DNA of 64,000 bases from Acidobacteriota bacterium (GTDB lineage Bacteria; Acidobacteriota; Terriglobia; Terriglobales; Acidobacteriaceae), in assembly GCA_021781495.1 (NCBI GenBank), contig JAJXWS010000003.1, positions 1 through 64,000 on the forward strand, in the 5' to 3' direction. Made by a program: the position numbers and the translations under genes. Positions 45,274 to 51,324 of this stretch are shown here, one piece after another (within the stretch, counting starts at the first letter, position 1; the number at the start of each line of letters is the position of its first letter). A model generated the notes under the pieces. The model ran no database searches and had not been told where the DNA came from. It saw only the letters and a program-made list of their open reading frames with translations.

Positions 45274-46857
45274 GTGAAGCTTCGACTTCTTTCTCTTACC
45301 GCACTTACAGCCGCCTTCCTCATCGTAGGATGCGGCGGCGGTGGCACCACCTCGACAACCGGCACCGGCTCTGGCGGCGTCTCCGGGCCCGACATGGGCA
45401 CAGTCACCGGCGTCAACGACAGCTACGACCTCAAGCTCAAGAATGCCTCCACCGGCCTCGTTCTCGGCATCTCCGGCCAAAGCCAGATCGCGGGCACCAA
45501 CGTCGCGCAGGAGTCCGACAGCGGCTCCACCGATGCCCTGTGGCACGCCATGCCAATGAACAACGCCCAATACAACATTGAAAACATGCTCACCCATCAG
45601 GTGATGGGCGTCCAGAACGCCTCCACCAACAGCGGTGCCCAGGTGCTGCAATGGGCTGACAACGGCACCGCCGACCATCTCTGGCAGTTCTACATCCTCT
45701 CAGACGGCAACTACCTCATCAAGAACGTGAACAGCGGGATGTACCTCGAGGTCGCCGGCGGCGGCACCTCCACCAGCGCCACCATTGACCAGGCACCCCG
45801 CGCCAGCAGCGGCAAATACCAGGAGTGGACCGTCGCGCAGACCACCACGGCCGCTTATCCGGCGCCCCGCACCGTCAACGGCACAGGCGTTTACGTGCAT
45901 GACCCCTACATGCTCAGGGATGCCAATGGCACCTACTGGCTCTACGGAACCCACCAGACACTGGCCTCGTCCACGGACCTGACCACCTTTACCTACAACC
46001 AGAGCTGCACCACAGCGCAGCGCAGCGGATACACCAGCTACTGCCCCATCATCGGCCCTGACTTTGCCTCGTGGGCAGGCCTGCAGACCCCGCCTTCGTG
46101 GAACAACGGCGCCAATACGGACCTGTGGGCACCCAGCCTGATGGTCTCCAACGGCATTTACTACCTCTACTACGCCATTCCCTACGAGCCCAGCACAGGG
46201 GCTGAAGCCCTCATCGGCCTTGCCACCAGCACCTCACCCACCGGCCCGTGGACAGACAACGGCTGGGTCATCAAGTCCTGGACCAGTTCCACCACGCCGC
46301 CCGCCGGCTTTACCGCCACCGCCTACAACGCCATTGACCCCGCGCCGTTCGTCGACACCGCCGGCAACTGGTGGATGGTCTTCGGCTCGTGGTTCGACGG
46401 CATTCATCTCATACAGCTCGACCCCACCACCGGCCTGCGGTCCACCACCAACACCACGCTCTACACCATTGCCCGGCGCGGCTCACCCTCCGCTGGGGAA
46501 GAAGGACCGTTCATCTACTACTGGAACGGCTACTACTATTACTTCGCGCCCATCAACGTCTGCTGCAACGGCGATGCCAGCACCTACCGCATCATCGTGG
46601 GCCGCTCGCAAACCGTCACCGGACCCTATCTTGACCGCGGCGGCATGGATCTTATGCAGGGCGGCGGCACCATCCTGCTCAGCGCCCATGCCAACATCAA
46701 CGGTCCCGGCGGCCAAAGCGTCTTTACCGACACCGTGAACGGCACGCCCACGCCCACATTGGTCTACCATTATTACGACGGCAACACCAACGGCCTGCCT
46801 ACACTGGGCATCAACCGGCTCGGCTTCGACGCTGACGGTTGGCCCTACGTGCAGTAG
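45274..46857 (+). CDS. GH43 lipoprotein with ricin-type carbohydrate-binding domain
   Basis: A 527-residue lipid-anchored arabinanase-like enzyme. The start is GTG 45274, fixed by GGAGG just upstream. The lipobox IVGC (Cys20) is followed by a Gly/Thr/Ser-rich linker. Residues about 48-190 form a ricin-B-like/CBM13 domain with repeated QxW-type marks (ALWHAM, HLWQFY, YQEWTV). The GH43 propeller (about 200-527) has base Asp210 in VHDPYML, Asp355 in AIDPAPF and acid Glu410 in EEGPFIYY. It probably displays the enzyme on the cell surface or periplasmic side, while the divergent GH43 is freely secreted. A TPR gene follows after 24 bp. Confidence 0.93.
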   Translation: MKLRLLSLTALTAAFLIVGCGGGGTTSTTGTGSGGVSGPDMGTVTGVNDSYDLKLKNASTGLVLGISGQSQIAGTNVAQESDSGSTDALWHAMPMNNAQYNIENMLTHQVMGVQNASTNSGAQVLQWADNGTADHLWQFYILSDGNYLIKNVNSGMYLEVAGGGTSTSATIDQAPRASSGKYQEWTVAQTTTAAYPAPRTVNGTGVYVHDPYMLRDANGTYWLYGTHQTLASSTDLTTFTYNQSCTTAQRSGYTSYCPIIGPDFASWAGLQTPPSWNNGANTDLWAPSLMVSNGIYYLYYAIPYEPSTGAEALIGLATSTSPTGPWTDNGWVIKSWTSSTTPPAGFTATAYNAIDPAPFVDTAGNWWMVFGSWFDGIHLIQLDPTTGLRSTTNTTLYTIARRGSPSAGEEGPFIYYWNGYYYYFAPINVCCNGDASTYRIIVGRSQTVTGPYLDRGGMDLMQGGGTILLSAHANINGPGGQSVFTDTVNGTPTPTLVYHYYDGNTNGLPTLGINRLGFDADGWPYVQ

Positions 46858-46881
46858 CCGCGGTCTGCCTGACGATAGACC

Positions 46882-47823
46882 ATGATCAAGCCGTATTCCA
46901 TACTCCTCACCGCCGGAGCAGCAGCCCTCATCGCCTGCTCCGGCCTCTGCTCCGCACAGCAGATTCCCGACAAGACCGTGCCCCGCCCCAGCCGGCCCAT
47001 CCTGCAGGATGAGCCACCCGCGCCATCCTCGGCCGCGGCCCTGGAGGCAAAGTTGCGCAGCGAGGTGCAGGCCAATCCCAACTCCGCCGATCTGCTCTAT
47101 CGACTCGCGCTGCTGCTGCAGCAGGAAAACAAACCGCGCGAATCGCTCCAGGTCTTCACGCAGGCGGCCGGGCTGCAAAAGCCCACCGCTGACCAGCTAC
47201 GCTCCGTCGCACTCAACTACGTACTGCTCAACGACTACGACGACGCCGTTCACTGGCTGCGCGTGGCTCTTGGCTTCGAACCGAACAACGTGAGTGTTCT
47301 CTACAGTCTGGGCCGATGCTTCTACACGCAGAACAACTTTCCCCAGGCCGAGGTCGCATTCCTCCGCATCCTGCAGTTGCAGCCGCGCAACATCAAGGCC
47401 ATGGAGAACCTGGGCCTCACTTACGATGGCGAGAACAAGCCCGATCTGGCCGAGAAGGCGCTCCGCACCGCCGCCACCTGGGATGCCGCGCAACCCTCAG
47501 CCGACCCCTGGCCCGCGCTCGATCTGGGAGTCTTTCTCCTCGACCAGAGCCGCACTGCAGAGGCTGTGCCGTTCCTCACCCGCGCCGCCTCGCTTGCGCC
47601 CTCGCTCCCGCTGGCCCGCCTCACTCTGGGCCGCGCGCTGGTGCTCACAGGCCAGTCCGCCACCGGCATCAAGGAGCTCGAAGCCGCCGCGCAGCTCGAC
47701 CCCCAGAACCCCAAGATCCACTTTGAACTGGGCCACGCCTATCGCGATGCCGGCCAGCTCGACAAAGCCCGCACCGAGTTCGCGCTCAGCAAGTCCTTAT
47801 ACGGCTCCCACAACCAGAACTAG
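46882..47823 (+). CDS. Exported TPR protein downstream of GH43
   Basis: A 313-residue TPR protein with a signal peptide (about residues 1-26, ending SGLCSAQ; LIACSG nearby could alternatively be read as a lipobox). Six or more TPR motifs run from residue 50 to the end (DLLYRLALLLQQENKPRE, VSVLYSLGRCFYTQNNFPQ, KIHFELGHAYRDAGQLD). It is 24 bp after the GH43 lipoprotein gene and very likely co-transcribed. It may assemble or scaffold the surface enzyme, which is an inference from position. Confidence 0.85.
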   Translation: MIKPYSILLTAGAAALIACSGLCSAQQIPDKTVPRPSRPILQDEPPAPSSAAALEAKLRSEVQANPNSADLLYRLALLLQQENKPRESLQVFTQAAGLQKPTADQLRSVALNYVLLNDYDDAVHWLRVALGFEPNNVSVLYSLGRCFYTQNNFPQAEVAFLRILQLQPRNIKAMENLGLTYDGENKPDLAEKALRTAATWDAAQPSADPWPALDLGVFLLDQSRTAEAVPFLTRAASLAPSLPLARLTLGRALVLTGQSATGIKELEAAAQLDPQNPKIHFELGHAYRDAGQLDKARTEFALSKSLYGSHNQN

Positions 47824-47943: not shown

Positions 47944-48295
47944 TGGTGGAGGCGGCGGGAGTCGAACCCGCGTCCGAAATCGCTGTCAGCCAGGAGAGTC
48001 CATGCTCAGTCCGGTTCCGCATGTTTCGCCGGCGGCGCTCAGAACGGACAAGATGCGCCGAAAGCTAGTCCGATGATCTTGCGCAAGTAACACGGACCGA
48101 GCTACTTACGCCAGCCTGCTGTGCGACGCCCGCTCGCGGCCCACAGGCAAAGCCGCGGAGGACGGCTGCTTAGTTAATTAAGCAGCAAGTGCCAGATTGT
48201 CGTTGGCAACTTTTGTTTTGCGAGCGATTACGGGTGCCCACACCCCGACATGCCTCCCATGCCGCAATCGATCCCGTCGAAACCGTGACGCCCCC
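47944..48295 (-). ncRNA. ssrA: tmRNA
   Basis: Transfer-messenger RNA of 352 nt that rescues stalled ribosomes. The 5' end GGGGGCG pairs with CGCCTCC just before the 3' CCA, giving the seven-pair acceptor stem. The T-arm reads CGGGTTCGACTCCCG. The tag frame (48207-48178 on the minus strand) reads ANDNLALAA followed by TAA TTAA, the usual degradation tag ending LALAA. The conserved 5' segment GTTTCGACGGGAT is present. Confidence 0.96.
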
Positions 48296-48930: not shown

Positions 48931-49044
48931 ACAAAAAAAGACGGCACGAACGGTCTAGCTGTTCGTGCCGGGAGGCCAGTGACGCAAACTACTTCCGGGA
49001 CCGAAGCGGGCAGCTCACCCGCCTCCATCACCGGAATATCTACA
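48931..49044 (-). ncRNA. Candidate small RNA with own promoter and terminator
   Basis: A minus-strand transcript of about 110 nt is predicted. It starts just after a promoter at 49049-49077 and ends in a strong terminator: a 9-bp stem GGCACGAAC/GTTCGTGCC (48943-48951, 48961-48969) followed on the minus strand by TC and seven T. The body can form hairpins GCGGG/CCCGC and CTTC/GAAG. CCGGTGA can pair with TCACTGG and GGAGG with CCTCC in an interleaved (pseudoknot-like) order. It contains no start codon with a ribosome site and reasonable frame. It does not show the SRP RNA signature. Confidence 0.5.
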
Positions 49045-49048
49045 CCTT

Positions 49049-49077
49049 ACTATAGATTCGCGAGGAAGCCAATACAA
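49049..49077 (-). promoter_or_regulatory. Promoter of the candidate small RNA
   Basis: On the minus strand: TTGTAT (49077-49072), a 17-bp spacer and TATAGT (49054-49049). The spacing is ideal, the -10 is good, the -35 is moderate. Confidence 0.55.
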
Positions 49078-49199: not shown

Positions 49200-49427
49200 A
49201 TGAAAGATCCTTTAGAATCTGTTGATTTCGCGCAGAACATCTCGCCTGAACCCCGCCCGGCGGACTGGCTGAAGGTGGGCATGGTCGCTGCGGCCTCGGC
49301 TCTGGCGGGGGGCATGGCAGCAGCCTGGTTCTACCGAAAGACGATTACGCGCCTCCGTCAGGCGGAGATTTCCGACACAAATACGGAATTCGGAATTTCT
49401 GACGACGACCTCAACGAGGACTTCTAA
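49200..49427 (+). CDS. Small single-pass membrane protein of unknown function
   Basis: A 75-residue protein, MKDPLESVDFAQNISP, with one hydrophobic segment (about residues 25-45, LKVGMVAAASALAGGMAAAWFY) and an acidic tail (SDDDLNEDF). I start at ATG 49200; the frame is open to 49176. A near-perfect inverted repeat GCAGGCTTGCC/GGCAAGGCTGC (49151-49172) followed by CTTTT sits in the leader and may attenuate transcription. No family is recognised. The topology (single helix, charged cytoplasmic tail) fits a small stress or envelope protein, but this is not evidence of function. Confidence 0.65.
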   Translation: MKDPLESVDFAQNISPEPRPADWLKVGMVAAASALAGGMAAAWFYRKTITRLRQAEISDTNTEFGISDDDLNEDF

Positions 49428-49524: not shown

Positions 49525-51324
49525 TTACTTCCCCACTTCTCCCACGTACACTCCGAACGACCCAAGCTGGATGGTGCTCAGCGAAGCCGGGTCGGCGGCT
49601 CCCGGGGTCTTCAGCAGCGTGGTCAGCTTGCCGCCGGCTCCGGGAATGGACAGGCTTACCGTCTGCGGCTCAGCCGTAAAGTTGAGCGAAACCACCACGG
49701 TTGGCGATCCCGCAACCTGCCGCATCCAGCTCAGCACCTTCGTATTGTCCGTATCGAGCATCGTGTTGCTGCCGTGGGCAAACGCAGGATTCGTCTTTTT
49801 CAGTTGAATCAGGCCCCGGTACCAGGCCAGCAGCGAAGCCGGATCCGCCTCCTCCGCCTTCACGTTGATCGTGGCGGCATTGGGAGGAACCGGCAGCCAC
49901 GTCTTCACGCCTGCCGCGGAAAAGCCTGCATTCGGCATGGCATTCCACTGCATCGGAGTACGCTCGCCGTCGCGGCCCTTCTCCTTCGGCCATCCCGTCA
50001 CGCCCACCGGATCCTTCACATCCTCCTTGCGCGTGGGCGGCGTGGTCTTCATGCCGATCTCATCGCCGTAGTAGAAGAGAGAGGTCCCGCGGCTCGCAAA
50101 CAGGACCGTCGAAAGCACCCGCTCAATATCGGTATCGTGGACACCGTCGCCATAGCGGGCATCGATGCGCGGGTTGTCGTGGTTATCGAAGAGCAAGAGC
50201 GGTAGATGGCCGTCCAGATGCTCTTCAGCATCCGTCAGCTTGGCGCGGAATACGGCAACGTCGAGCTTATTGATAAAAGCCAGCTGGGTATCCATCGGCA
50301 GTTCGAACTCCGGCTTTCCCGGAGGTCCGTACTGCTTGGCCAGCTCGGCAATGTTGGGCAGATAGGTCTCGCCGATCAGCACGCGGCTGCCGGGGAACTT
50401 ATCCGAATCGAAGCGCTGGGCCTCGGCGTGCATCTCCTGCATCACCGCGTGAACGCCCGGCAGGTTGTCCGTCTTGGAATTATCCAGCTCGGGCTCGCCA
50501 AACGCATCCAGGATCGGCTCTCCATTCGCATCCTTGACGACGCCCTCATCGGCCAGCGAGGGATCCTCGAATAGCGTGGTAATCGCATCAAAGCGGAATC
50601 CGCCCACCCCGCGCTTCATCCAGAAGGCCATGATGTCGCGAAAGGCCTCATGCACCTTGGGATTGTCCCAGTTCAGATCCGGCTGCTGGATGTAGAACTT
50701 GTGATAGTAGTACTGCCGCGTCGTTGGATCCCACTGCCACGCGGAGCCGCCAAAACCCGACTGCCAGTTGTTCGGTGGCTCACCCTTGGATGTAGCAGTT
50801 TCCCCCTTGCCGTCGCGCCACACATACCAGTCACGGTACGGATTCGTGCGCGAGGACTTCGATTCCAGGAACCACTTGTGCTTGTCGGATGTGTGGTTCA
50901 TCACCATATCCATCAGCACGCGGATGTGGCGCTTGCCGGCCTCGGCAACCAGACGGTCGAAGTCGGCCAGCGTGCCGTACTGCGGATCGATGTTCTCGTA
51001 GTCCGAGATGTCGTAGCCAAAGTCGACCTGCGGAGAGGGGTAAATCGGCGTCAGCCAGATGGCATCCACGCCCAGCTTCTGCAGGTAGTCCAGTCGCTGC
51101 GTAATTCCATTCAAATCGCCGATACCATCTCCGTTGGAGTCTTGAAAACTCCGCGGATAAATCTCATAGATGACGGCGTTCTTCCACCAGTTTTCTTCTC
51201 GGTTCTGTTGTGCGGCTGCCTGTGGGGTATGGCCTGCGGGTGCGCTTTGCGCTCCTGCGGACAGGGTCACAGCTCCCAAAAGCAGAGTTGTGACGCAGCC
51301 CGCGATGGTCTTGGTCCAGTGCAT
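49525..51324 (-). CDS. Exported GH13 alpha-glucosidase
   Basis: An alpha-amylase-superfamily enzyme of the oligo-1,6-glucosidase/alpha-glucosidase branch, hydrolysing alpha-glucosidic bonds of malto- or isomalto-oligosaccharides. ATG 51324 (AAGGAG upstream) gives 599 residues starting with a signal peptide (TTLLLGAVTLSAGAQ). Conserved regions: DMVMNHTSDKHKWF (I), GFRFDAITTLFEDP (II, nucleophile Asp), IGETYL (III, acid Glu), FDNHDNPR (IV). The domain starts NAVIYEIYPRSFQDSNGDGIGDL. The substrate-related VMNHTS fits alpha-glucosidases. It stands alone, with a 169-bp gap to the SPFH gene upstream. Confidence 0.95.
   Translation of the reverse strand: MHWTKTIAGCVTTLLLGAVTLSAGAQSAPAGHTPQAAAQQNREENWWKNAVIYEIYPRSFQDSNGDGIGDLNGITQRLDYLQKLGVDAIWLTPIYPSPQVDFGYDISDYENIDPQYGTLADFDRLVAEAGKRHIRVLMDMVMNHTSDKHKWFLESKSSRTNPYRDWYVWRDGKGETATSKGEPPNNWQSGFGGSAWQWDPTTRQYYYHKFYIQQPDLNWDNPKVHEAFRDIMAFWMKRGVGGFRFDAITTLFEDPSLADEGVVKDANGEPILDAFGEPELDNSKTDNLPGVHAVMQEMHAEAQRFDSDKFPGSRVLIGETYLPNIAELAKQYGPPGKPEFELPMDTQLAFINKLDVAVFRAKLTDAEEHLDGHLPLLLFDNHDNPRIDARYGDGVHDTDIERVLSTVLFASRGTSLFYYGDEIGMKTTPPTRKEDVKDPVGVTGWPKEKGRDGERTPMQWNAMPNAGFSAAGVKTWLPVPPNAATINVKAEEADPASLLAWYRGLIQLKKTNPAFAHGSNTMLDTDNTKVLSWMRQVAGSPTVVVSLNFTAEPQTVSLSIPGAGGKLTTLLKTPGAADPASLSTIQLGSFGVYVGEVGK

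Follow-up and report, generated by a model that had tools for sequence, protein, structure and literature searches.

In Bacillus subtilis, the C-rich small RNA (sRNA) RoxS is titrated by RosA, a stand-alone sRNA carrying two G-rich regions (PMC8216469). In the Hfq-containing host Caulobacter crescentus, one sRNA of the CrfA/SisA-D system acts as a sponge and inactivates base-pairing sRNAs in connection with a nutrient signal (PMC12559287). The cuckoo RNAs of rhizobia, including alpha-r14 (NfeR1), contain ultraconserved unpaired anti-Shine-Dalgarno motifs together with stems of strongly diverging sequence and have a link to NtrBC nitrogen control (PMC10746234). From the Acidobacteria, comparative genomics has yielded noncoding RNA candidates such as Acido-1 (RF01686) and Acido-Lenti-1 (RF01687) (PMC2864571). 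Our literature search found no characterised trans-acting sRNA in this phylum. Here, we report on a small RNA gene encoded in a 64,000-nt stretch of an Acidobacteriaceae genome (the window), which is almost certainly a real, independent gene and represents a new RNA family of the Acidobacteriaceae. The sequence comparisons presented below make it reasonably likely that its product is a trans-acting base-pairing sRNA, which would repress mRNAs and would itself be titrated by a partner RNA under sigma-54 control.

The small RNA unit spans 48933-49077 on the minus strand and occurs as a single copy in its own genome, a 3.6-Mb draft. A preliminary description had read this region as a candidate small RNA, missing from the annotation and made up of a promoter, a folded body and a terminator, and the comparative data back this reading. 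The -35 element TTGTAT (49072-49077, minus strand) and the -10 element TATAGT (49049-49054, minus strand) are separated by a 17-bp spacer exactly as described there, and both are conserved in the 59 aligned relatives, the -10 element reading TATRNT in 59/59 and the -35 region showing 86-98% identity per position. The hairpin and T7 terminator of that description are likewise found, with the hairpin CGGCACGAAC-loop-GUUCGUGCCG at 48942-48970 of the minus strand (arms CGGCACGAAC/GTTCGTGCCG, spanning 48970-48942) followed by a run of seven T at 48939-48933. A generic consensus scan listed neither the promoter nor the terminator, because TTGTAT fits the -35 consensus in 3/6 positions and the terminator loop comprises 9 nt; it is the conservation among relatives that lifts both elements above chance. 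The predicted transcript comprises ~109 nt (48933-49041, minus strand), its putative start being placed from the promoter. With its own promoter, a Rho-independent terminator, an intergenic position, no coding capacity and a length within 50-300 nt, the gene shows the features of a trans-encoded sRNA. A coding small ORF was considered and rejected: the copy in the window is open by chance, and the lengths of the relatives differ by non-multiples of three, so that no reading frame is maintained.

The nearest upstream gene on the minus strand encodes a GH13 protein and ends at 49525, ~450 bp from the -35 element. The GH13 gene is on the same strand here and in some relatives, and the hairpin could in principle terminate its read-through transcription with no RNA gene present at all. 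This is hardly credible: a conserved promoter sits between GH13 and the terminator, stem 1 and the core described below are conserved upstream of the terminator, and in most relatives that keep the small RNA no GH13 was detected in the upstream flank. A GH13 read-through terminator, which had been named beforehand as the case against an RNA gene, was rejected since GH13 is mostly not adjacent and the RNA is conserved together with its promoter. On the plus strand, 49209-49427 encodes a divergent small protein (start ATGAAAGATCCTTTAG) with one apparent membrane segment and no Pfam match, which is found at ~45-65% identity upstream of the small RNA in most loci of the genus.

The genus of the window genome was represented by 71 genomes, Terracidiphilus gabretensis among them, and the small RNA including its promoter is present in 60 of these, its own genome included (BLASTN, E <= 2e-17; the search covered 119 relatives and the resulting alignment contains 59 copies). 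Of 249 genomes in the order, a covariance model matched 143, distributed over 17 genera which all belong to the family of the window genome, with one copy per genome barring a few weak extra matches. In a phylum sample of 396 genomes the core was confined to this family except for a single match with one mismatch, and the control gave one match. The matches listed include the named carriers Terracidiphilus gabretensis S55, Edaphobacter aggregans, E. modestus and E. lichenicola as well as Granulicella spp., Silvibacterium bohemicum and an Acidipila. Also among the matches listed, the exact core occurs in two records titled Rhodanobacteraceae and Verrucomicrobia (L256, L278), which may reflect contamination or chance. 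In Rfam 15, no family matches the small RNA at the gathering score or at E <= 10, the best chance match being isrG, whose 9.5 bits fall far short of its gathering score of 100; the suggestion that the RNA could belong to Acido-1 thus fails in the covariance-model search even at this permissive threshold. An exact literature search for the core sequence found no paper.

The 111-nt body folds at -53.9 kcal/mol compared to -36.4 kcal/mol for shuffled sequences (z = -5.3). Comparison among relatives supports a fold composed of a 5' stem-loop and the terminator hairpin. Stem 1 is formed by the strands UUCCGG (49031-49036, minus strand) and CCGGAA (48993-48998, minus strand), both marked by covariation, and it is kept as AUUCCRG/CYGGAA in the 59 aligned copies with exchange between G-C and A-U. 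It encloses a variable apical arm (48999-49030, minus strand) that is conserved neither in sequence nor in length and is nearly gone in locus L059. Over stem 1 (TTCCGG/CCGGAA) and the terminator, 98.3% of the alignment cells are paired and 31 are compensatory, a number equalled by 0/500 shuffles and a signal that collapses upon sliding by a single column. These 31 cells supply the covariation in relatives that had been proposed as a check. The terminator stem shows compensated changes within the genus and also across genera, for example from GGCACGAAC/GUUCGUGCC to CCGUAUGGG/CCCAUACGG. The preliminary description had further pointed to the interleaved pairings CCGGTGA/TCACTGG and GGAGG/CCTCC; the letters are indeed present, while the fold drawn from them is unsupported, with no two-sided change in 59 sequences. 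A pseudoknot formed by these pairings was rejected for lack of covariation, and they are probably a by-product of a chance match of the 5' strand CCRGUGA..GGAGG to the core.

The 18-nt core UUGCGUCACUGGCCUCCC (48970-48987, minus strand) is nearly invariant in the alignments within the genus and across genera. It forms a mostly single-stranded linker between the two stems, its final C entering the terminator stem, and it is on average only ~50-70% unpaired in isolated folds. The core contains CCUCC, an anti-Shine-Dalgarno motif. A 24-nt block, UUGCGUCACUGGCCUCCCGGCACG, is identical in 59/59 aligned copies of the genus. In other genera (40 copies), no 5' body can be recognised, while AAGUUGCGUCACUGGCCUCCC and a terminator persist. 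The sole core variant seen is that of G209, which reads GGCAUCCC. Locus L122 (G266) carries a tandem duplication of the 5' core part (AAGTTGCGTCACTGGAGTTTATAAGTTGCGTCACTGGCCTCCC) near positions 2001-2060.

Downstream of the small RNA on the minus strand lie a gene for a secreted protein of unknown function with a PCYCGC motif (PF13798; 48374-48832) and the tmRNA gene (47944-48295; RF00023, 190.7 bits). Across the family, small RNA, PCYCGC gene and tmRNA recur in this order, the PCYCGC gene being well conserved beside the small RNA in many genera, and in locus L037 the tmRNA directly follows the small RNA. This recurring gene order, together with the shared strand and a distance of 42-126 bp in 32 of the 46 loci having the gene, is what would be expected if the RNA were a 5' leader of the PCYCGC gene, an attenuator or riboswitch with the hairpin as a regulated terminator. 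We consider this improbable. The full range of distances is 42-1151 bp, and no PCYCGC gene lies within ~1.5 kb of an intact small RNA in more than ten loci of the same genus and in several loci of other genera, so that the fixed position typical for a leader is not found. Moreover, the 5' body is free to vary and contains no conserved aptamer, and the 5' strand of the terminator has no antiterminator partner and itself changes with compensation. In the family genomes that do not contain the small RNA (17 genomes checked), nothing similar lies upstream of the PCYCGC gene in 16/16 having it. Because the spacing varies or the gene is missing nearby, the small RNA is not a leader, and the arrangement is one of synteny.

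Searching 60 genomes with the reverse complement of the core returned the small RNA gene itself and, in G018, G025 and G032, a second site, GGGAGGCCAGTGAC, which in all three genomes belongs to one conserved intergenic locus downstream of mutM. This locus appears from sequence comparison to encode a second undescribed and unannotated RNA, referred to as the partner RNA. In the genome of the window it is located at positions 46763-47006 of G000:C196 (loci L138 and L145), with site A near 46787 and site B near 46946; its relatives are found in loci L131-L133, L146-L174, L175-L201 and L385-L397. Within the genus, a BLASTN search with the whole partner sequence, and not with its sites, identified it in 56/65 genomes (E <= 0.01). 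Its promoter is a -24/-12 element of the sigma-54 type, TGGCAC-N5-TTGCT, with conserved GG and TGC, followed by a structured body of ~220 nt with compensatory pairs and a terminator. Rfam gave no credible match to the RNA itself (L131-L133, L138, L184, L200, L178). In G209, the partner RNA has an Acido-Lenti-1 RNA as a neighbour at a distance of a few hundred bases (RF01687, 49.5 bits; L178:317-362, minus strand). The longest conserved runs of the partner are site A GCCAGTGATGT, a third block CCGGCAAGAG and site B TGGGAGGCCAGTGACC, and two of these three are complementary to the core of the small RNA. Conservation within the partner is highest in the blocks GCCAGUGAUGU and UGGGAGGCCAGUGACC, the latter of which pairs with the core along 14 bp.

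Both conserved sites of the partner have their complement in the core. Its 3' half CACUGGCCUCCC, which includes the anti-Shine-Dalgarno motif, is the perfect complement of site B GGGAGGCCAGUGAC, giving 14 bp without mismatch, and its 5' half GCGUCACUGGC pairs with site A GCCAGUGAUG, using G-U pairs. For 45 pairs of core and partner, the core-site B duplex was calculated at -28 to -37 kcal/mol, energies attained by 0-1/200 dinucleotide shuffles in each, and site A is the second-best core site in most of these pairs. Estimated from genome size, an exact 14-mer is expected to occur by chance ~0.03 times per genome. The duplex energy of the full-length RNAs is uninformative, with 82/1000 shuffles being as good, because it takes no account of internal structure, and the comparison confined to the core is the one that carries meaning. 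No compensatory change between core and partner was observed: in G209 the core reads GGCAUCCC and site B is unchanged, and apart from G209 core and partner sites are too invariant to inform on compensation. Three g47 genomes have a site B ending in GCC, cutting the match to 12 bp, and in most genera outside g1 and g47 site B lies inside a self-complementary hairpin, GGCCAGUGAYUGGCC, which must open to pair. Genera g36, g39 and g41 lack site A. A conserved, largely single-stranded core complementary to a trans-encoded RNA corresponds to what is expected of an sRNA seed.

That 18 nt should be almost unchanged in 17 genera is more than a seed alone would usually show, and CCUCC resembles the anti-Shine-Dalgarno sequence of 16S rRNA, which raises the idea that the core binds a protein or the ribosome in a protein-sequestering or protein-guided RNA, its match to the partner reflecting a shared ligand. 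This we regard as very improbable indeed, given that the two RNAs bear mutual complements and not the same sequence, contrary to what a shared protein ligand predicts.

The partner is, by the author's reading, present in ~34/40 small RNA carriers examined, and in most genera bearing the small RNA it is located downstream of mutM or elsewhere. In many genera it was recognised by pattern, a procedure biased toward site B; in G157, G206 and G166 it was found free of this bias by its place after mutM. The g36 partner is encoded elsewhere in the genome, with a similar promoter and the sequence AGGAGGCCAGYGACUGGCC. In the 17 family genomes without the small RNA, no exact site B was found, and the region after mutM contains no such element. 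Some drafts of the genus have the partner without the small RNA, e.g., G007, G023 and G024 (69-91% complete), which may be due to genome incompleteness. The partner is thus encoded elsewhere, complementary to the seed and co-inherited, as is typical for an sRNA and its sponge. On the basis of this comparison we consider it quite probable that small RNA and partner, as a co-inherited complementary pair, bind each other.

In the mechanism that we favour, the constitutive-type promoter would drive synthesis of the ~109-nt transcript ending at the Rho-independent terminator. The 5' stem-loop would act as spacer and stabiliser, its sequence being free to drift, and the 18-nt core held between the two stems would be the working part. 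The core halves would pair with the partner, the 3' half with site B and the 5' half with site A. The small RNA would most likely repress mRNAs at their ribosome-binding sites, possibly together with Hfq, which is encoded in 8/8 genomes tested including its own. A search of the genus genomes for near-full mRNA targets of the core (18 nt, <= 2 mismatches) returned as recurring matches only the small RNA itself and the partner, and the mRNA-repression step is for this reason deduced from the CCUCC motif and from precedent. The sigma-54-type promoter suggests that the partner is probably made only upon a specific signal, and as a two-site sponge it would lift repression by titrating the small RNA. 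We favour titration of the small RNA by the partner with even confidence, the direction of regulation being a guess.

The absence of any other recurring near-full complement of the core from the genus genomes also fits a reversal of roles within a dedicated pair, in which the sigma-54-controlled RNA would be the effector or a protein binder and the small RNA, with hardly any mRNA targets or none, its antisense regulator or sponge. The two sites of the partner account for the whole core, and the partner, being larger (~220 nt), structured and equipped with the third block CCGGCAAGAG, may do more than titrate. However, CCUCC is consistent with targeting of Shine-Dalgarno sequences, and g36, g39 and g41 keep only site B, yet the 5' half of the core is invariant there. 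We consider this reversal unlikely. It is rather unlikely that the two RNAs form a dedicated family-wide switch, whose main or only purpose would be mutual two-site binding with the larger RNA as effector; such a switch would join an RNA with a housekeeping promoter to a structured RNA under sigma-54 control and would be a conserved regulatory module of two RNAs, unlike an ordinary sRNA and its sponge.

For the Acidobacteria, a dominant soil phylum, the small RNA adds an RNA that is found throughout one family, has an almost unchanging core and comes with a specific, testable partner. Since carriers such as Terracidiphilus gabretensis, Edaphobacter, Granulicella and Silvibacterium bohemicum are cultured, expression and pairing are directly testable, and the sigma-54-type promoter of the partner would place the two RNAs within the nutrient or stress signalling of these slow-growing bacteria. 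Among the described systems, the pair resembles RoxS/RosA in consisting of a C-rich sRNA and a separately encoded two-site partner under separate transcriptional control; however, the sequences are unrelated and derive from another phylum, RosA is under control of CcpA whereas the partner described here has a sigma-54-type promoter, and pairing is proven for RoxS/RosA while here it is predicted (PMC8216469). With CrfA/SisA-D the pair would share a sponge-type partner in an Hfq-containing bacterium, one sponge facing four sibling sRNAs there and one small RNA having one partner here, and we claim no relation in sequence (PMC12559287). The small RNA matches the model of neither Acido-1 nor Acido-Lenti-1, even at E <= 10. 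We claim no descent from RoxS/RosA, CrfA/SisA-D or the cuckoo RNAs. The anti-Shine-Dalgarno motif combined with drifting stems is a feature in common with the cuckoo RNAs and alpha-r14, in which CCUCCUCCC is displayed in three hairpins, whereas in the small RNA of the Acidobacteriaceae two stems flank one 18-nt linker core (PMC10746234).
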